Origin: Pyrobaculum sp. 3827-6
GTDB taxonomy: Archaea; Thermoproteota; Thermoprotei; Thermoproteales; Thermoproteaceae
Length of the DNA: 64,000 nucleotides
Direction of reading: 5' to 3'
NCBI RefSeq assembly: GCF_025641885.1
Contig: NZ_JAOTQN010000001.1
Span: forward strand, 1,116,001-1,180,000
This document shows, in pieces, positions 8,233 through 17,976 of the stretch (positions within the stretch are counted from its first letter, which is position 1; each line of letters begins with the position of its first letter). The notes under the pieces are model-generated. The model had not been told where the DNA came from. It saw only the letters and a list, made by a program, of their open reading frames with translations, and did no database searches. The position numbers were made by a program, and so were the translations under genes.

Positions 8233-9105
8233 CTACGCAGGGTTGCCGGCGTACCAGCCGCACATTTTGCAATACCTCCCGTCGGTTTCTGCGCCGCATA
8301 CAGGACACGGCATTGCACCTCCACGCGCGTAGGACAAGCCCATGTTGCGGAATAGGTGGTAGAGATACCTCGCGGCGCCTTTTACCGGGATATCTACATG
8401 AACCTCTCTGCCCCGCGCGGCGAGTACGTCGTAGAGTTTCCTGAAGCCGCTACCCACCTCAATTGGGTCTTTCCTCCGGCGCCCCACCCCGCCCAGCGCC
8501 TTCTCGAGCTCAAGGCGCAGTAGGCACTTCCCCACCCCGCATTTTACCTTCTCCTCAAGGGGGATTGACATGAGGAACTCCTCTATCTCGAGAAACGGGG
8601 CTTTTACAGAGACGCCTAGGGCCTTTCCGATGTCAAAACTACAGAAGTACCACCGGCCCCGCATTTGGCGTAGATAGCTGGCCAGCTCGTCAACTTCCTT
8701 TCTCAACATAAAGTCGTAGCCGATGCAGAGCTCGTCCCCGCCGTCCCCCGTACAGACTCTAGAAAAGCCGCGCATCTTGGCCTCCAAGAGGCCGATGTAA
8801 ACAGCGGCGCAGTTCACCACCTCCATGGGGTTAAACACCCGGAGAATTTTCACAACCTCGGCAACTGCCCCCAGCGCCTCCTCCACAGTTACGTATCTCA
8901 CCACTAGAGGCATGCCGAGCGCCTCGGCGGCGGCGACTGCGTACTGGACGTCGCTACCCCCTCCGCCGAGGAGCTGGACGTTTATAAGCAACGGCCTCCC
9001 CGGGGCGTGTACATACGCCACGGCGGTGGAGTCGACGCCCCCGGAGAAGAGAACAGCCTCACACGGCTCCTTCAGTACCACATCCCTCAACCTAGCCAGT
9101 ATCAC
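8233..9105 (-). CDS. Stand-alone asparagine-synthase-type ATP pyrophosphatase with zinc ribbon
   Basis: 290 residues. It has the PP-loop SGGVDST near residue 20 and the asparagine-synthetase signature GDGGDELCIGYD in the middle, but the N-terminal glutaminase domain of AsnB is absent. The C-terminus carries CPVCG and YCKMCG, a probable zinc ribbon. The enzyme would adenylate a carboxylate or carbonyl and use ammonia, or a sulfur or nitrogen donor bound elsewhere. The GTG start lies about 21 nt below a TATATATAAA element. It is divergent from another PP-loop ATPase gene starting at 9175. True substrate unknown; not a canonical asparagine synthetase. Confidence 0.7.
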   Translation of the reverse strand: MILARLRDVVLKEPCEAVLFSGGVDSTAVAYVHAPGRPLLINVQLLGGGGSDVQYAVAAAEALGMPLVVRYVTVEEALGAVAEVVKILRVFNPMEVVNCAAVYIGLLEAKMRGFSRVCTGDGGDELCIGYDFMLRKEVDELASYLRQMRGRWYFCSFDIGKALGVSVKAPFLEIEEFLMSIPLEEKVKCGVGKCLLRLELEKALGGVGRRRKDPIEVGSGFRKLYDVLAARGREVHVDIPVKGAARYLYHLFRNMGLSYARGGAMPCPVCGAETDGRYCKMCGWYAGNPA

Positions 9106-9130: not shown

Positions 9131-9143
9131 GGATGTTAAGCCA

Positions 9144-9153
9144 ATATTTAAAA
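9144..9153 (+). promoter_or_regulatory. TATA box for the DPH6-like/cbiS operon
   Basis: ATATTTAAAA centred about 27 nt before the ATG at 9175. It decides the start against the in-frame upstream start at 9133, which lies before this box. Confidence 0.5.
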
Positions 9154-9174
9154 AAGTCTGAAGATCTCGACACG

Positions 9175-9780
9175 ATGAAAATAGCATTCTATTCAGGCGG
9201 CAAGGACAGCGTCTACGCGTATCTTCTGGAAAAGCCGGTGGACCTCCTCTTCTTCTCCATATACAGCTTTCCGCGGCCTTCGCCGCATATCATAAACATA
9301 GGCAAGGCGCTGGAGCTGGCGGCGGCGTTGGGCGTTCCCGTAATAGCGGCGCCGTTGCCCAAGGGCCGGGAATTTAACTACAAGGCGGATTTGCTCAAGA
9401 GGCTGGGCGCCTCCGTCCTGGTAGCCGGCGACCAAGCCGTGGAGGACCACCTGGCCTACATGAAGAAGCTGGCTGACTCCGTTGGGGCGGAGCTCAAGGA
9501 ACCCCTCTGGGGAAGGGACCCGCGGGAGGTTCTCATGGAAGAGGTCAGGCGTATGGATTTCGTAGTGACCGGCGCCTTCCACAGGGAGTTGATATGTAAA
9601 GAGGTCAATGGAGAAAACGTGTTGGAATTCCTAGGGTTGCTGGAGAGGCTTGGGGTTGACCCCATCGGAGAGAGGGGCGAATACCACAGCCAAGTTGTGC
9701 GAGTTGGGGACGTGAGGGTGGAGTACCGTTGCGGCGGTGTGATGGACTTCGGCGGCTACTACATCGCCAAGCTGTTATGA
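9175..9780 (+). CDS. DPH6-like ATP pyrophosphatase (diphthine-ammonia ligase family)
   Basis: 201 residues from the ATG at 9175. PP-loop SGGKDS lies at about residues 7-12, and GERGEYHS near residue 164 matches the conserved GE(N/R)GE(F/Y)H motif of the DPH6/MJ0570 family. DPH6 amidates diphthine on elongation factor 2, the last step of diphthamide formation. Family members also exist with unknown substrates. The stop overlaps the cbiS start by 4 nt (ATGA), so it is first in an operon with cobamide salvage, which is odd for a translation-factor modification enzyme and leaves a corrinoid-related role open. Confidence 0.75.
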   Translation: MKIAFYSGGKDSVYAYLLEKPVDLLFFSIYSFPRPSPHIINIGKALELAAALGVPVIAAPLPKGREFNYKADLLKRLGASVLVAGDQAVEDHLAYMKKLADSVGAELKEPLWGRDPREVLMEEVRRMDFVVTGAFHRELICKEVNGENVLEFLGLLERLGVDPIGERGEYHSQVVRVGDVRVEYRCGGVMDFGGYYIAKLL

Positions 9781-10763
9781 CCGGGGTGAGGGTGGAGGAG
9801 GGCGGGCTCTGGGTCGAGGCGCCGGGTCTCGCCCTGTCCTCGACCGTAGACGGCGGGCTTAGGCGAGTCAAGGGCGCCGTTTTTAGGCAGGTCCGGGGGC
9901 GCGCGACGTGCGGCGAAATGGAGGCCGGGGCTTATCCAGATTACCTAAATTTCTACACAGCGGTTGACGTGGAGAGGCGCCACGCTGTGGTTAGTGGGGG
10001 CTGGGTGGACGTGGTGGCCACAGCTGGTTTAGGCAACACCATCAACGTCTTGGCTGTTCTACGCATCGAGCCCGACGCCAGGGCTTTGGCAGACGCCTTT
10101 AGACTCGCCGCCGAGGCCAAGGCCGTGGCCGCGTGCGACTTGGGGATTAGGCGCGGGGGCCGTAGGGTGGGAGGCGACGTCTCAGACGCCGTGGCTGTCG
10201 TGGCGACGGGCGGGGCGGCCCAGCGCTACGTCGGGCTGGGCACCGATGTGGGGGAGGAGCTATATAGGCTTGTCCGGGAGGCGGTGGTGAAGGCGCTCAG
10301 CGACTTGGGGGTCGACTGGGAGCTTAGGCAGAACCTCGGCGTGGGCTACGGCGACTTGCTAAACGCGGCTATGGAGATATACTCCAGGGCCCCCGTCCCA
10401 GGAGCCGGGGAGGTGGGCAAGGCGGTGAAGGAGATTCTAGACGCCTACCTGGCCGATCCCAATGTCTGGGCTTTTATATACGCCGCGGGGGAGCTAGACG
10501 CCAAGGCCGCGGCTGGTTGCCACCGGGGGCTCACGGCGGAGGAGCACGCGGGGGACAGCAAGAAGATTATTGCCGACGAGGCGCTGGGGGTGGCCCTGGC
10601 CCAGTACATAAACGGGTTTAAGGCTGTGGAGATGATGTACTGGATAGATAGAGAGAAGCCGGGGCCCCTGGCCAGCCTTCCGATGTACGCCGACGACATC
10701 GCCGCCGCCCTCCTCGCCGGGATCCTGTCGAGGCTGTACGACAAGTTGATATACGGAGTTTAG
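9777..10763 (+). CDS. cbiS: CbiS: adenosylcobinamide amidohydrolase fused to alpha-ribazole phosphatase
   Basis: 328 residues. The N-terminal part (to about residue 190) is CbiZ-like, with GNTINVLAVL and GGDVSDAVAVVATG around residues 130-142. The C-terminal part (about 215-328) is CobZ-like, with KIIADEALGVALAQYINGF, then a conserved DREKPG and YADD. In other archaea the same fusion, CbiS, cleaves the side chain of pseudo-cobamides to cobyric acid and removes the 5'-phosphate of alpha-ribazole phosphate or cobalamin phosphate. The start is the ATG at 9777 overlapping the previous stop. It acts with the cobamide cluster at 13.1-18.6 kb. Confidence 0.88.
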   Translation: MTGVRVEEGGLWVEAPGLALSSTVDGGLRRVKGAVFRQVRGRATCGEMEAGAYPDYLNFYTAVDVERRHAVVSGGWVDVVATAGLGNTINVLAVLRIEPDARALADAFRLAAEAKAVAACDLGIRRGGRRVGGDVSDAVAVVATGGAAQRYVGLGTDVGEELYRLVREAVVKALSDLGVDWELRQNLGVGYGDLLNAAMEIYSRAPVPGAGEVGKAVKEILDAYLADPNVWAFIYAAGELDAKAAAGCHRGLTAEEHAGDSKKIIADEALGVALAQYINGFKAVEMMYWIDREKPGPLASLPMYADDIAAALLAGILSRLYDKLIYGV

Positions 10764-11581: not shown

Positions 11582-12079
11582 TTATTCCGCTGGGCCAGAG
11601 ATCCGTGGATTTGTAGCAGTGTCTGCGGTTACCACAATAACTTCTCCGTATCTAGAGGCTTTGAGAGCTATTGAAAAAATCTCCAAATCGTCGCCAGTTA
11701 CCCCTCTAGTAATCTCTGTCAACGTCCTATCATCTTCGCCGATTATACTGGCGGCGCTTCTAGCCAGTATGTGCAGTTTTAACCCAACCCCACTCGTCAA
11801 CGGCATGTCTCTACATATCCACGATTTTGCCCGCGCGATGTTTAGAATAACGTCTATAGTCCTCACGAGTGATGATTGGAGCTTGGGTAGAGGGTGGCGA
11901 TGACTACGGAGCAGAGGTATGACTTTTGTTCTCAACGTCTTGAGATACTTCGCGGAAACAAACCACGTGGACTCGAGGGATGGTAGCTTGTTCCCTATCA
12001 GCTCTATGGCCCGTTTCTCCTCCCTAGGCTTGTCTCCGCAGGGGATAAGCGCCGAGTGATCTAGAACCAGGTGAAACAT
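11582..12079 (-). CDS. PIN-like nuclease paired with AAA ATPase
   Basis: 165 residues. The start LVLDHSALIP gives the first PIN aspartate (D7). Near the C-terminus GDDLEIFSIALKA (D130, D131) and VVTADT (D153) match the third and fourth acidic positions of PIN domains. The middle is longer than in VapC toxins. The gene begins at the very next base after the ATPase gene ends (12080), so the two are almost certainly co-translated. This suggests an ATPase-controlled RNA or DNA nuclease, possibly defence. No antitoxin-like gene is next to it. Confidence 0.6.
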   Translation of the reverse strand: MFHLVLDHSALIPCGDKPREEKRAIELIGNKLPSLESTWFVSAKYLKTLRTKVIPLLRSHRHPLPKLQSSLVRTIDVILNIARAKSWICRDMPLTSGVGLKLHILARSAASIIGEDDRTLTEITRGVTGDDLEIFSIALKASRYGEVIVVTADTATNPRISGPAE

Positions 12080-13111
12080 TTAGAATATCTGTGACACTAC
12101 CTCCAGGGCGCCTGGCAATTCTTCAAAAGTCCCATCTTCATAAACTTCAATTTTCTTAACTCTTGTCCATGGCGCCTCTTGGCTCCTTTCCAGATAGTAG
12201 AGAGCTATATCACCTGTACTGAGCCTACCTGTTTCGACCTCCTTAGCGATGGCGTTTAGAATGACGTCGCTATGTGTAGTTATGACTAGAGTTATTCTCT
12301 TCTCTACGGCCTTTTCTAGATCTTTTACCATCTCTATTAGGAGGAGGGGGTTTTTGTGGGCCTCAGGCTCCTCGATAACTAGAAGGCTGTCTTTCCGCGC
12401 CTTTTCTATATACATTTTAACAAGTGACAAATCTACTGCGCCGTCAGGAGCCCGCTCTATTGGCAACCTATGCTCTACAAAAGGATCCCGATATTTAAGG
12501 TCTGCAAGAAGGGGGAATAGAAGCGATATGTTTTCAGTTAGTACCCCCGCCTCTCTTCCCAAGTCGTAGTGATGGGGAGATGTACCGACGCCGTAGAGGC
12601 TAAAGAAATCCTCAATGAAAAAGTAGGTGGGCGGTATCCCAGCTAATAAATCTCGATAATTTTCAAGAAGAATCAGCGCCATGATCTGACGACTCGCACT
12701 ACCAACTCTATGCGCCGTTAATACGCGCCTACTTAATATTTTTGTGAGAAAGTATAAACTCTTTATCAATGCTATTCTCTGCGAGGGTAGCAGGTAGGCG
12801 CGGCTCCAGGGGCTCCTCTGCGGCATCTTAACGCCGTCTACTGTGGCTACAAATCTCGACTCGCCGACCACTATCTCGACAGGGTAAAACTTCTCACCTG
12901 ATACCTGCCTTACCAATTCTTTGAATGGAGCGCCGTAGAGCCGCCGCGCCACCTTGTTAACGTCTCTCCACTCTGATATCTTGGCAAGGAAGTAAGCGGC
13001 ATACGCCAGGCTAGACTTCCCGCTGGCGTTTTTCCCAATGAAGATGGTAATGGGCCTTAGGTCGAGCCTCGCCTCTTCTATACACCGCCAGTTCCTCACA
13101 TACAACTCCAC
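12080..13111 (-). CDS. AAA/SMC-like ATPase (AAA_21/OLD-type)
   Basis: 343 residues. Walker A GKNASGKSS at residues 26-34 directly follows an ABC/SMC-like N-terminal strand (MELYVRNWRCIEEARLDL). Walker B LLVIEEPEAH sits near residues 243-252 and a histidine switch ITTHSDVI about 28 residues later. This is the compact OLD/AAA_21 type found in many defence and DNA-repair modules, without the TOPRIM nuclease of OLD. The downstream PIN gene abuts it, so nuclease activity is probably supplied in trans. There is no sign of a DNA methylase or reverse transcriptase nearby. Confidence 0.75.
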   Translation of the reverse strand: MELYVRNWRCIEEARLDLRPITIFIGKNASGKSSLAYAAYFLAKISEWRDVNKVARRLYGAPFKELVRQVSGEKFYPVEIVVGESRFVATVDGVKMPQRSPWSRAYLLPSQRIALIKSLYFLTKILSRRVLTAHRVGSASRQIMALILLENYRDLLAGIPPTYFFIEDFFSLYGVGTSPHHYDLGREAGVLTENISLLFPLLADLKYRDPFVEHRLPIERAPDGAVDLSLVKMYIEKARKDSLLVIEEPEAHKNPLLLIEMVKDLEKAVEKRITLVITTHSDVILNAIAKEVETGRLSTGDIALYYLERSQEAPWTRVKKIEVYEDGTFEELPGALEVVSQIF

Positions 13112-13146: not shown

Positions 13147-13608
13147 CTACCAGTCCAGCCCCTTTACGGCTACCCGGCGGTTGTAGTAGTGCTTTGTGGG
13201 CTGAATCGTGGATATCAAGTCGGCGGCCTCCTCAGCCTCGGGCCAGAGGTAGTTCCCGGTTATGACGACGTGGGGCTTAAGCGTTGCCAGCTTCTTGACG
13301 TAGCTAGGCTCTATGAAGCCCTGCCTCACGGCGTAGTTAAACTCGTCTAGTATGACCAAGTCGTAGCTGTCGGCCACTTCAAGCACGCTCTCCACCAAGG
13401 CGAGGGGCGATCCGAAGTCGCTGAGGTACGCCACGTCCACGCCCAGCCTCCGCAAAGCCTTGTACTCCCCCACCTCCTCCCCCATGTAATAGGGAGTCTT
13501 CATAACAAAAGCCGCGAGAACCCTCATGCCGTGGCCCCAAGCCCTCAGCAACGTCCCAAGCGCAGCCGTGGTCTTGCCCTTTCCGCCCCCCGTATACACC
13601 AGCAACAC
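13147..13608 (-). CDS. cobA: Cob(I)yrinic acid a,c-diamide adenosyltransferase, CobA/BtuR type
   Basis: 153 residues from the GTG at 13608. P-loop GGGKGKTTA is at residues 7-15, VILDEFNYAV (Walker B region of CobA) near the middle, and VVITGN follows. CobA adenosylates the cobalt of corrinoids and is needed before side-chain attachment. A longer in-frame extension reaches 13797, but it would overlap most of the upstream gene's end and shows no family motif; the GTG lies 31 nt after that gene. Same strand and order as the CobY fusion, so probably one operon. Confidence 0.85.
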   Translation of the reverse strand: MLLVYTGGGKGKTTAALGTLLRAWGHGMRVLAAFVMKTPYYMGEEVGEYKALRRLGVDVAYLSDFGSPLALVESVLEVADSYDLVILDEFNYAVRQGFIEPSYVKKLATLKPHVVITGNYLWPEAEEAADLISTIQPTKHYYNRRVAVKGLDW

Positions 13609-13639
13609 AGAAATGCCCCGATCCGTAAATAAAATAACA

Positions 13640-14485
13640 TTACGTAATTTGCGCCGCCCGCCTGCGGAGCTCGGCCACCGGCACCTCAATGGTGGGTATT
13701 TCCGAGATGTGCCTCCCGCGGTATGTGTGCCAGGTGGTCTTGGGCGGGTACACCGCACCCCTGGCCGCTCTGTCCAACACCTCACCCTTGTCCACATTTA
13801 CGTCAACGACCGCATAGTCGAAGAGTAGAACGGGGGCCGGGAGGCGGGCCCTCTTAAGGAAGCGGTGGCGGTGGTGGCCGTCCAGTATCACGCCAGATCG
13901 GTAGTCCACGGCGATGGGCCTAACGACCTCGTAGACCCTATCCTCAAGCACGTCTTCATGCGGCCTCAGCCGCTCCGGGTCGATGTAGAGGGGATAGGCC
14001 GCTGGACACAGCTCCTCGGCCTCGGCCAGGTCCTCGGCGGTATCCACATCAACAAGGCGGCCGACCTCCACGGAGGTCCACCTCTCCAAGTCTGTGTTGG
14101 GTATGTAGGACAGGCCTACGGGCTCCCCCCGCGACAGCGCTGTGGTGAATATCTTCTCCCGCAGGAGCGCCTCGACGTGGGCTGGGGTCAGATTGGCGAT
14201 GTCGCACGCCGCGACCACTACGGGGGCTAGCTGGACAACGTGGAGCACGTCCCTCTCGTAGCCAAGCCCCGGGGTGGCAATTACTTGGAGCCCCCATTTC
14301 TCAGCCGCTTCTATAACCTCGCTGTGTCTCGTCGTCGTCGCGACATAGATCTTGTCCGCGACCTGCGCCAGCGCCCCCGCCACTCGAAATAACAGGGGGA
14401 CGCCGCAGACGGGCGCCAGACACTTCTGAGGGTTTCCGAAGCGGCTCCCCCTCCCCCCTGCCATAATCACTGCTGAAATGTTCAT
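13640..14485 (-). CDS. cobY: CobY-like guanylyltransferase fused to a ParB/SerK-like domain
   Basis: 281 residues from the ATG at 14485. The N-terminal part (about 1-160) is a nucleotidyltransferase with MAGGRGSRFG and a distal VDVDTAEDL, as in archaeal CobY, which transfers GMP to adenosylcobinamide phosphate. CobY proteins are about 200 residues. The extra C-terminal part has RPHEDVLEDRVYEV, VILDGHHRHRFLK (DGHHR at 202-206) and LFDYAVVDV, the pattern of ParB/sulfiredoxin-fold amino-acid kinases such as archaeal SerK. Because the divergent neighbour is CobD, which needs L-threonine phosphate, I infer this domain is an L-threonine kinase. Starts further upstream (to 14539) would run into the cobD gene. 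Confidence 0.72.
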   Translation of the reverse strand: MNISAVIMAGGRGSRFGNPQKCLAPVCGVPLLFRVAGALAQVADKIYVATTTRHSEVIEAAEKWGLQVIATPGLGYERDVLHVVQLAPVVVAACDIANLTPAHVEALLREKIFTTALSRGEPVGLSYIPNTDLERWTSVEVGRLVDVDTAEDLAEAEELCPAAYPLYIDPERLRPHEDVLEDRVYEVVRPIAVDYRSGVILDGHHRHRFLKRARLPAPVLLFDYAVVDVNVDKGEVLDRAARGAVYPPKTTWHTYRGRHISEIPTIEVPVAELRRRAAQIT

Positions 14486-14533: not shown

Positions 14534-15439
14534 GTGCACGGCGGCTCCACATGGGCTGAGGAGGCGCCTCTGGACTTCTCCGACAACTCAAACCCCATCG
14601 GGCCGCCTGCGGGGTTTTGGGAGGCGCTGAGGGAAGCAGTGGAGAGGGGTGTTCACCGGAGGTTTCCGGCCCACCTCGCCGAGGAGACCCTGTCGCAGTA
14701 CGAGGGACTTCCTGTGATCCTCTTCAACGGGGCTACCGAGGCGCTTCTCTACGCCCTGCTGGAGCTGAGGCCTAGGAGGGTGCTCACGGTCTGGCCCACA
14801 TACGGCGACTACCAAAGAGTTGCAGAGTTGCTGGGGGTGCCCCTCCGCCAGGTGCCGCCCTGGGGCCTCAAGTCGGCGGGGGGCGGCGATGTGGTGATAC
14901 TCTGCAACCCCAACAACCCAACCGGCGCCTACCTCCCGCGGGACTGGGTGGTGGACACGGCTAGGAGGCTTGAGGCGAGGGGGGCGCGCCTCCTTGTAGA
15001 CGAGTCGTTTATCGACTTCGCCAGAGGCGAGTCCGCCGCGCCTGACGTCGCCGTGGTTAAGTCATACGGCAAATTCCTAGCGGCGCCGGGGCTGAGGGTG
15101 GGGGCGCTGTTGTTTAAGCCGTCCCGTCCCCCGCCGTGGCGAATAAACAGCTTTGCTGACTACGCCCTCTGGAGGCTGGGCCCAGAGGCTCTGCGCAGAC
15201 ATAGAGAAAAGACGCTGGAGTACCTAGCCGAGGAGAAGCCGAGAATTGTAGAGAAGCTGAGGAGGTGCGCCCCGGTGGCCCCGAGCTGGGTGCACTTCCA
15301 CATAGTGTTCTCCGACCCCCCGCCTGGCGTAAAAGTGAGGCCCCTCTGGGACAAGGGGGTGAGGGGCTTCCGCTTCTCTCTAAGAACGCCCGCTGAAAAC
15401 AACGTGTTGGTACACGCCGTCTGCCGCCATGTGCGTTAG
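14534..15439 (+). CDS. cobD: L-threonine-O-3-phosphate decarboxylase (CobD)
   Basis: 301 residues from a GTG. The N-terminus HGGSTW, then LDFSDNSNPIGPP, is the CobD/histidinol-phosphate-aminotransferase-like signature. CNPNNPTGAYLP and LVDESFIDF are fold-type I PLP motifs, and the PLP lysine is K180 in SYGKFLAAPGLR. It makes (R)-1-amino-2-propanol phosphate, the linker of the nucleotide loop. It is shorter than bacterial CobD (about 360). It is divergent from the CobY fusion with 48 nt between starts, and overlaps cobS by 11 nt. Confidence 0.87.
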   Translation: MHGGSTWAEEAPLDFSDNSNPIGPPAGFWEALREAVERGVHRRFPAHLAEETLSQYEGLPVILFNGATEALLYALLELRPRRVLTVWPTYGDYQRVAELLGVPLRQVPPWGLKSAGGGDVVILCNPNNPTGAYLPRDWVVDTARRLEARGARLLVDESFIDFARGESAAPDVAVVKSYGKFLAAPGLRVGALLFKPSRPPPWRINSFADYALWRLGPEALRRHREKTLEYLAEEKPRIVEKLRRCAPVAPSWVHFHIVFSDPPPGVKVRPLWDKGVRGFRFSLRTPAENNVLVHAVCRHVR

Positions 15440-16073
15440 AGATCTGCTCAGCTTCTTTACAATACTCCCCCTCGGCGGGCGGGGCCTCGGCTTCTCCTGC
15501 CTCTGGGCTCTGCCCTACCTAGGGGCGGCTGTGGTGGGCGGCGCGGGGGCCTTTGTGTACTACCTCACGGGCGACGGGAGGGTTGCCTACTTCGCCTTGT
15601 TGGCGGCGACGGGGCTGAACCACGTAGACGGCCTCGCAGACGTTGCAGACGCCTTGATGGTGAGGGACCGCGGAAGGGCGCGTGCCGTGTTGGAGGATCC
15701 CCACAGAGGCGCCGCCGCCGTCTTTGCCGTGTCGGCGGCGGTCTTGCTGGGCGCCTCGGCGCATGTAGACGGCTGGTGGGACTACATACTGGCGGATTCC
15801 TACTCCAAGGCGCTGACCGTAGTAGCCGCAACCTTCTCCAAGCCGTTTAAGCCGGGGCTCGGGGCGGAGTTCATAACTCACGCCAGGCGGCAGTGGCCCG
15901 CGGCGCTACCCGCGCTAGCCCTCGCCGCCTGGCTAAACCCCCGGGCATTCGCAGTTGCCACCGCCGCGGCTCTGCTTCTATACGCCGCGGCCTATAGACA
16001 CCTCGGCGGGGCGAACGGCGACATCTTCGGCTTTCTCCTGGAGATATCCAGGGTGGCGTATCTATACCCGTGA
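15429..16073 (+). CDS. cobS: Adenosylcobalamin-5'-phosphate synthase (CobS)
   Basis: 214 residues, polytopic with about six hydrophobic segments. GLNHVDGLADVADALM holds the conserved Asp-rich motif of CobS, and GGANGDIFG near the C-terminus is the second signature. The enzyme joins adenosyl-GDP-cobinamide to alpha-ribazole (phosphate) in the membrane. It overlaps cobD upstream (11 nt) and cbiB downstream (4 nt), so translation is coupled. Confidence 0.9.
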   Translation: MCVRDLLSFFTILPLGGRGLGFSCLWALPYLGAAVVGGAGAFVYYLTGDGRVAYFALLAATGLNHVDGLADVADALMVRDRGRARAVLEDPHRGAAAVFAVSAAVLLGASAHVDGWWDYILADSYSKALTVVAATFSKPFKPGLGAEFITHARRQWPAALPALALAAWLNPRAFAVATAAALLLYAAAYRHLGGANGDIFGFLLEISRVAYLYP

Positions 16074-16960
16074 TAGAGCCTCTGCTGGTAGCCCTGTTGC
16101 TGGAAATTCTCGACGTGCCTAGGTGGTGGCGCGGCCACTTGGTGAGCAGGCTGATCCCCCCGCAGATCCACCCGGTTTCCCTCTACTACCGCCTCATAGC
16201 GCCTCTAGCCCGGGGCGGGGGCCTGCGGCGCGGCCTCCTCATAGCTTCGACGGCGCCGGCCGTTGCGGCGGCGGTGGCCGTATTTATGTGGCTTGTCAAC
16301 AAACACGTCGGGGGTCTCGCCGCTGTTCTCATAGAGGGGTACATGCTGAAGCTTACGTTCTCCATAACCCACATCATCTACCCATGCCTCTGGCGCCTCT
16401 CCAAGCCCGACTTCCCAAGAGTCGTCCAGGAGTTCGTCAGGAGGGATTTGTCCAACGCCAGCAGGGGTCATGTAAACTCTGCATGTATAGAGACCGCGGC
16501 GGAGTCGCTGGTGGACTCCTTCATATCTCCCCTGTTTTGGTACGCCATCCTTGGGTTGCCGGGGGCGTGGCTCCAGCGCCTTGTAAATACCCTAGACGGC
16601 CTCGTGGGCTCCCCCGAGAGGGGGAGGCTGGGCGCCCCATCCGCCTATCTAGACACGGCTATGAACTACATCCCAGCGAGGGTAGCGGCTCTCCTAATCT
16701 TGGCCGTCGGCGGCTTTAGGAACGCCCAGTGGCTCTCACAGAGGAGGGCTGTTCCGAGCATAAACGCTGGGTGGCCCATCGCCGCCATGGCCGCGGCCCT
16801 GGGGGTGATGCTGGAGAAGCCGGGCGCCTACAGCCTAGGCGGCGGTAGTCTACCGGACGAGGGAGCAGTCCGCAGGGGACTGGCCGCTACGGCTTTAGCC
16901 GCGGCGGCGTGGTCAGCCGTGATAATGCTTATAATATGGATAAAGTGCCAATATTTTTAA
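16070..16960 (+). CDS. cbiB: Adenosylcobinamide-phosphate synthase (CbiB)
   Basis: 296 residues from a GTG that overlaps the cobS stop. The CbiB signatures are present: NASRGHVNSACIETAAESL, DSFISPLFWYAILGLPGAW, NTLDGLVG and NYIPARVAALL. Several membrane helices are visible. The enzyme attaches aminopropanol phosphate to adenosylcobyric acid. The C-terminus overlaps the cobT start by 25 nt. Confidence 0.9.
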   Translation: MIEPLLVALLLEILDVPRWWRGHLVSRLIPPQIHPVSLYYRLIAPLARGGGLRRGLLIASTAPAVAAAVAVFMWLVNKHVGGLAAVLIEGYMLKLTFSITHIIYPCLWRLSKPDFPRVVQEFVRRDLSNASRGHVNSACIETAAESLVDSFISPLFWYAILGLPGAWLQRLVNTLDGLVGSPERGRLGAPSAYLDTAMNYIPARVAALLILAVGGFRNAQWLSQRRAVPSINAGWPIAAMAAALGVMLEKPGAYSLGGGSLPDEGAVRRGLAATALAAAAWSAVIMLIIWIKCQYF

Positions 16961-17976
16961 ATGAGTGGGATCTAGGCGCTGTGGACGAGCTCCTGCTCGT
17001 CGTGGTGGGCACCACCGATGTCTCGACGATCCCCGGCGTCTCCATAGCGGGGCCTACGCCTGAGGCTACGCTCTACACCCCGACGCTAGACGTGGAATAT
17101 TTAGTAACGGGGAGGCCCCTCACCCTAGACGTCATCCCCGTCACGCCTACCGGCATACCCACGCCGGTGCTGGTCACGCGTGCGCTGGCCAAGGGGTTGC
17201 CTAAGTTAGTGGTAGACGCAGGTTGTAAATATCCTCCCAAAATCCCGGTGGTGCATTTGGGAGGGATCCACGGCGGCGACATTAGGCGGGGGGCTCTGCC
17301 GCGGGAGGTGGTGGAGAGGCTTGTGGAGAGGGGGCGGACCCTCGGCAGAGGTCTAGCCCCCCTCAGGCTGGCAATTGGCGAGTCTATTCCGGGGGGCACC
17401 ACCACGGCTATGGCCCAGCTGGTGGCTCTCGGATACGACGCTTGGGGTAGGACGAGCAGCGCCTCGCCCAACAACCCCAAGGGGTTGAAAATTGCTATTG
17501 TAAAAGAGGCGGTGTCCCGCCTCAAGATACCCGCCGACGCCGTGACCGCGGCGGCCGAGGTGGGCGACCCCGTCCACATCTCGGTGGCAGCCATAGCGCT
17601 GGGCGCGGTGGAGGAGGGCGCCGAGGTAATCCTCGCCGGGGGGACCCAGATGGCGGCCGCCGCGGCGCTCTATAAGGCGCTGGGCGGCGATCCCGGCCGG
17701 CTTACGGTGGCCACCACGCGGTGGATAGTGGAGGATAGAAGCGCCGACTTTATGGGACTTATGAAAGAGGTGGGGGTAAGCCGCGTGGTGTATTCCAACG
17801 CCTCCTTCGCCGCGTCGAGATTCGAGGGGCTGAGGGCGTACGAAGCCGGCTACGTGAAGGAGGGGGTCGCCATGGGGTACGCCCTCTGGAGGGCCGAGAG
17901 GCGCGGGCTAGACGTCCTCCGGCTGGTGGAGGAGGAGTATATGAGAATTACGAAGGCCGGAGGCGCGGGGCGGTGA
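16936..17976 (+). CDS. cobT: Archaeal CobT-like nicotinate-nucleotide phosphoribosyltransferase (UPF0284)
   Basis: 346 residues from the ATG at 16936. It follows the archaeal CobT/UPF0284 type: VGTTDVSTIPGVSIAGPTPE, then HLGGIHGGD, SIPGGTTTAMAQL and VILAGGTQMAAAAAL. It would activate the lower-ligand base as an alpha-ribotide. It is embedded between cbiB and cbiE with overlaps on both sides. An upstream in-frame start at 16909 would add nine residues without family support. Confidence 0.83.
   Translation: MDKVPIFLNEWDLGAVDELLLVVVGTTDVSTIPGVSIAGPTPEATLYTPTLDVEYLVTGRPLTLDVIPVTPTGIPTPVLVTRALAKGLPKLVVDAGCKYPPKIPVVHLGGIHGGDIRRGALPREVVERLVERGRTLGRGLAPLRLAIGESIPGGTTTAMAQLVALGYDAWGRTSSASPNNPKGLKIAIVKEAVSRLKIPADAVTAAAEVGDPVHISVAAIALGAVEEGAEVILAGGTQMAAAAALYKALGGDPGRLTVATTRWIVEDRSADFMGLMKEVGVSRVVYSNASFAASRFEGLRAYEAGYVKEGVAMGYALWRAERRGLDVLRLVEEEYMRITKAGGAGR

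Follow-up and report, generated by a model that had tools for sequence, protein, structure and literature searches.

The locus described here raises the question of why a CobY-type guanylyltransferase should carry a second, kinase-like domain, and whether this domain could be the L-threonine kinase (EC 2.7.1.177) of the cobamide pathway. This activity is listed as still missing from the cobalamin pathway of haloarchaea (PMC8305020); a recent review names no sources of L-threonine kinase other than PduX and BluE (PMC7242693), and PMC6461909 cites the bifunctional kinase/decarboxylase MM2060 of Methanosarcina mazei. The reaction and the pathway step proposed below are the same as for these three proteins. 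The gene lies in a stretch of 64,000 nucleotides from Pyrobaculum sp. 3827-6 (the window). We consider it fairly probable that its product is a bifunctional L-threonine kinase/CobY, where kinase activity, threonine as substrate and the phosphate donor are what we infer.

An earlier note, made from the sequence alone, had described a fusion of CobY with a SerK-fold domain in one reading frame, placed in a cobamide-linker cluster with CobD as divergent neighbour. All three statements were confirmed; its further reading of the second domain as a candidate L-threonine kinase is supported in part. The fusion was recovered by profile comparison, AlphaFold and Foldseek, the starts of the fusion gene and of CobD are separated by 48 nt, and CobD, CobS, CbiB, CobT, CobA and CbiS lie alongside (Table 1); CbiE was also found among the genes that follow CobD. 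With the ATG at 14485 as the chosen start, the protein begins with MNISAVIMAGGRG, which is the usual start of CobY; an alternative GTG upstream would give 299 residues. For the protein of 281 residues, AlphaFold (family alignment) gave a model with a pLDDT of 94.2 and a pTM of 0.92, whose top Foldseek match is M. jannaschii CobY (E 1.7e-8). A chance joining is excluded, because 14 genomes of the family share the two-domain frame at 41-68% identity with invariant motif residues. Both domains are intact.

Table 1. Features of the fusion gene and of the surrounding cobamide cluster (window coordinates).
Feature	Position	Strand	Remarks
Fusion gene	13640..14485	-	281 aa; CobY-type guanylyltransferase + SerK-fold kinase domain
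N-domain	13991..14485	-	aa 1-165; CobY / MobA-like NTP transferase; K21 and D95 invariant
C-domain	13640..13981	-	aa 169-281; short SerK-type ParB-fold kinase domain
PHE motif	13955..13963	-	aa 175-177; E177 = Tk-SerK Glu30
DGHHR motif	13868..13882	-	aa 202-206 = Tk-SerK D69-R73
KTTWH motif	13727..13741	-	aa 249-253 = Tk-SerK K221-H225
CobA/BtuR corrinoid adenosyltransferase	13147..13698	-	next gene downstream of the fusion, its frame overlapping the end of the fusion gene; real start probably near 13640
CobD, L-threonine-O-3-phosphate decarboxylase	14534..15439	+	divergent neighbour; TIGR01140 E 2e-38 (132 bits, under the 290-bit cut-off)
CobS	15429..16073	+	
CbiB	16070..16960	+	
CobT, archaeal NaMN phosphoribosyltransferase	16909..17976	+	
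CbiS = CbiZ amidohydrolase + CobZ alpha-ribazole phosphatase	9729..10763	+	309.7 bits (cut-off 250)

The N-domain matches the Pfam family NTP_transf_3 (E 1.2e-17), and the closest PDB sequences are those of M. jannaschii CobY (2mzb, 3rsb; E 5e-7), which it resembles throughout in sequence and fold and with which it shares the pathway neighbours. The NTP-binding motif GGxGxR, Lys 21 and the acidic metal ligand Asp 95 are retained, so that sequence, fold and these residues are those of a CobY. Against the NCBIfam CobY equivalog, a methanogen model, the domain scores 36.5 bits (cut-off 250). Based on its fold, its neighbours and the related single-domain CobY proteins, it was assigned as a divergent member of CobY. 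Elsewhere, the sister family included (177-185 aa), CobY consists of a single domain, whereas the CobY of the window carries the kinase domain. A different, second CobY fusion was noticed at L150:8058-9677 (-), where CobY is joined to an AsnB-like PP-loop/zinc-ribbon protein (540 aa) and the gene adjoins CobS, CobT and CobZ.

As a single sequence, the C-domain gave a weak match to the NCBIfam SerK model (E 4e-4), its 19.5 bits lying below the strict cut-off of 380 bits. A profile of 14 C-domains, in turn, found SerK of Thermococcus kodakarensis (Tk-SerK, 5x0b) with E 1.1e-15 and SbnI with E 2.8e-5. The AlphaFold comparison of the C-terminal part with SerK, suggested by the earlier note, agreed: the model (pLDDT 96.4, pTM 0.87) has SerK as its top Foldseek match (prob 1.00, TMq 0.69, E 2e-3) and SbnI as the second (TMq 0.66-0.68); true ParB is remote (TMq 0.37). 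This distance and a Pfam scan of the fusion protein, which gave neither a ParB nor an HTH match, rule out a ParB chromosome-partitioning protein; likewise, the SerK/ParB fold, which is not that of a GHMP kinase, rules out PduX.

The motifs read from the sequence beforehand (RPHE, PIAVDY, VILDGHHRH and FDY) are all present, and the kinase-type catalytic residues turned out to be invariant across the fused proteins. We additionally found a C-terminal block, YPPKTTWH, which is absent from the earlier note and matches SPKTTRH of SerK; Thr 251 and His 253 within it are invariant among the fused proteins. By its fold, its PHE, DGHHR and KTTxH motifs and its catalytic glutamate, the C-domain thus belongs to the SerK-type superfamily. 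In an alignment with other SerK-like domains, the positions E30, D69, G70, H71, H72, R73, Y92, T223 and H225 of SerK are invariant in 12 fused proteins. Mutants E30A and E30Q of Tk-SerK are deposited in the PDB as SerK complexes, and going by these titles we take Glu 30 to be the catalytic residue. The invariance of the catalytic positions argues for a kinase, since a module that only binds its ligand would not need them.

The closest known system is Tk-SerK itself (TK0378; PDB 5x0b, 5x0e-k), an ADP-dependent free serine kinase with relatives in Thermoproteota of the same family. Fold, PHE/DGHHR/KTTxH motifs and the Glu 30 position are common to both. In contrast to Tk-SerK, the window domain is about half as long, lacks the inserted lobe, and is fused to CobY among cobamide genes. 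It also lacks the position of Trp 102, a column which is deleted in 12/12 fused domains and holds W in most other SerK-like domains; Arg 224 is replaced by W in the Pyrobaculum rows, the window domain among them. The loss of the Trp 102 position suggests an altered pocket in the fused domains and is a lead only with respect to a change of specificity. SbnI, an O-phospho-L-serine synthase of staphyloferrin B synthesis, shares the SerK-type fold, but is larger, bacterial and placed in a siderophore context.

The fusion occurs in 14 of the 19 genomes of the family (Pyrobaculum and Thermoproteus), among them Pyrobaculum sp. WP30, P. oguniense and Thermoproteus species. All 14 contain CobS, and 13 contain CobD and CbiZ; the only fused genome without the latter two, G034, is a fragmented bin. 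None of the five fusion-less genomes has CobS, and in four of them searches gave no SerK-like domain, the exception being G044 with a separate SerK-like gene of 175 aa. The co-occurrence of fusion and CobS (14/14 versus 0/5) was rejected as separate support for the kinase half, as one and the same protein includes CobY. The distribution is nevertheless informative, because the members without cob genes, G044 excepted, kept no stand-alone C-domain. G029 and G036 are near-complete genomes which lack both the cobamide genes and the SerK-like domain; this pattern argues that the domain serves the cobamide pathway and not general serine/cysteine metabolism. In a tree, one branch (support 93/95) separates the fused C-domains from the rest, which is consistent with one fusion event for all fused proteins.

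Since genes for all steps beyond L-threonine phosphate lie in the cluster or close to it, the phosphorylation of threonine is the visible gap in the pathway. We propose that the C-domain would phosphorylate free L-threonine at the expense of ADP or ATP, with Glu 177 as the putative general base. CobD would decarboxylate L-threonine-3-phosphate to (R)-1-amino-2-propanol phosphate, which CbiB would join to adenosylcobyric acid; the resulting AdoCbi-P would then receive GMP from the CobY part of the fusion protein, its N-domain. Unlike the bifunctional MM2060, CobD of the window (301 aa) has no extra kinase domain.

An HMM search of the whole window genome (G000) found no second SerK-like domain. 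PduX is a GHMP-fold kinase, and five GHMP proteins exceed the Pfam cut-off in this genome. Their best NCBIfam models are galactokinase, mevalonate, homoserine, shikimate and pantoate kinase, several of these assignments scoring under the curated cut-offs of the models. The initial impression that the cluster holds no PduX-type kinase could thus be extended to the genome, where all five GHMP kinases fit other functions and none is left unassigned. As an argument for a threonine kinase this absence is not decisive, because sister-family genomes of the same order (Vulcanisaeta/Caldivirga type) contain CobD and mostly lack a SerK-like gene. With five clear GHMP matches per genome, as in the window genome, the count gives no extra PduX candidate there. 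Another threonine kinase must exist in the sister family, and one might exist in the window genome too. Within the same order, G015, G002 and G013 contain CobD/CobS, no SerK-like gene and only the usual five clear GHMP matches.

In the phylum, SerK-like matches were found in 233 and CobS in 228 of 397 genomes. The SerK-like family at large was rejected as cobamide-specific, since among the listed coordinates CobS is usually distant or on another contig. Where neighbours were read, the SerK-like genes are fused to cysteine synthase, located beside it or stand-alone, and the parent family probably consists of serine kinases. Two SerK-like repeats are fused to cysteine synthase at L141:8609-10369, L180:9926-11689 and L181:9247-11220, likely a one-protein route from serine to cysteine through O-phosphoserine; in L138, L142 and L144 the two parts are adjacent genes. 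Judged by this association with cysteine synthase elsewhere, the small domain behaves as an amino-acid kinase which feeds a phospho-amino-acid to a PLP enzyme.

Outside the family of the window, two SerK-like genes near cob genes were found. In the distant archaeon G163 (L182), a stand-alone SerK-like gene, whose frame overlaps those of its neighbours, is part of the row BtuF-BtuC-BtuD-radical SAM-SerK-PP-loop-PP-loop-PduO, facing CobT-CbiS-CobY-CobD-CobS-CbiB; an ordinary SerK is encoded on another contig of this genome. The gene of G227 (L228:9632-10171 (-)) adjoins BtuF and a complete cob cluster, but also lies about 4 kb from a cysteine synthase, so that its role is ambiguous.

Taken together, a threonine kinase is favoured because only threonine phosphorylation is missing while the later linker steps are present in the cluster, because the window genome has neither PduX nor a second SerK-like gene, and because the G163 gene is an independent linkage. 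Threonine as the putative substrate derives from just two things, the pathway gap and the fusion. Several points argue against it: Tk-SerK is specific for serine and does not accept threonine (PMC5120207), so that a change of specificity is required; the fusion joins steps that are not consecutive; the sister family possesses CobD and mostly lacks both a SerK-like gene and a PduX candidate; and one of the only two cob-associated SerK-like genes outside the family is ambiguous.

That the C-domain has remained a serine kinase, whose product would be used by CobD (yielding ethanolamine phosphate and a norcobamide) or in cysteine synthesis, appears unlikely. The only characterised close relatives, SerK (PMC5120207) and SbnI (by its PDB name), do act on serine, and several of the SerK-like genes with known neighbours adjoin or are fused to cysteine synthase; the fusion to CobY and the absence of the domain where cobamide genes are absent make a general cysteine role improbable, and the deletion of the Trp 102 column may reflect a changed pocket.

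Still less probable is an adenosylcobinamide kinase, with which the fusion would be an archaeal analogue of bacterial CobU and would join consecutive steps, the commoner logic of fusions. The earlier note considered neither serine nor adenosylcobinamide as the substrate. The target hydroxyl is a secondary alcohol derived from threonine, CobU (Pfam PF02283) was not found in the window genome, and the order has no homologue over the cut-off. Such an enzyme would, however, be redundant, as 13 of the 14 fused genomes have CbiZ, the amidohydrolase of AdoCbi salvage in archaea; it would leave threonine phosphate without a known source, and the substrate over which SerK-fold kinases close is a small amino acid. 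CobU/CobP likewise combines a kinase and a GMP transferase of this branch in one protein; in CobU, a single P-loop domain performs both reactions, whereas the window protein joins two unrelated folds. Of similarly low probability is a nucleotide-binding sensor or scaffold that regulates CobY without kinase activity: binding of ATP, CTP or GTP by ParB-fold domains need not lead to catalysis, and CTP binding was seen for one archaeal SerK-like protein (PMC12704722), but in the fused clade neither the catalytic Glu base nor the T-x-H residues vary.

Returning to the L-threonine kinase, we hold with a shade less confidence than for the protein itself that it represents a further class of this enzyme in cobamide synthesis, which has the SerK/ParB instead of the PduX fold, arose from serine kinases via pocket remodelling and, being fused to CobY, combines the first and a late step in one protein. 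A CobY/SerK-type fusion was not described in the literature searched, most subscription papers lying outside its scope, and the main text of a survey of ParB-fold fusions mentions neither CobY nor nucleotidyltransferase nor threonine (PMC12704722). Surveys based on PF02195 would miss the domain, because Pfam finds no ParB domain in the fusion protein; in archaeal genomes, a metabolic kinase can be hidden behind a ParB-like label. For this step several archaea lack a known enzyme, and the fusion is a concrete, expressible candidate from hyperthermophiles, which also makes it possible to study how a kinase shifts from serine to threonine. A second arrangement, open to independent testing, is the SerK in the cob cluster of G163.

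Two further observations concern the surroundings of the fusion gene. An AAA_15-type ATPase gene with a small partner ORF (11582-13111 (-)) is inserted between CbiS and CobA. An AsnB-like PP-loop ATPase that has a zinc ribbon at its C-terminus but no glutaminase domain (8233-9105 (-)) adjoins a DPH6-like PP-loop ATPase (9133-9780 (+)); this pair was found again in the cob clusters of L159, where it is located between CobD and CbiB, L182 and L228.
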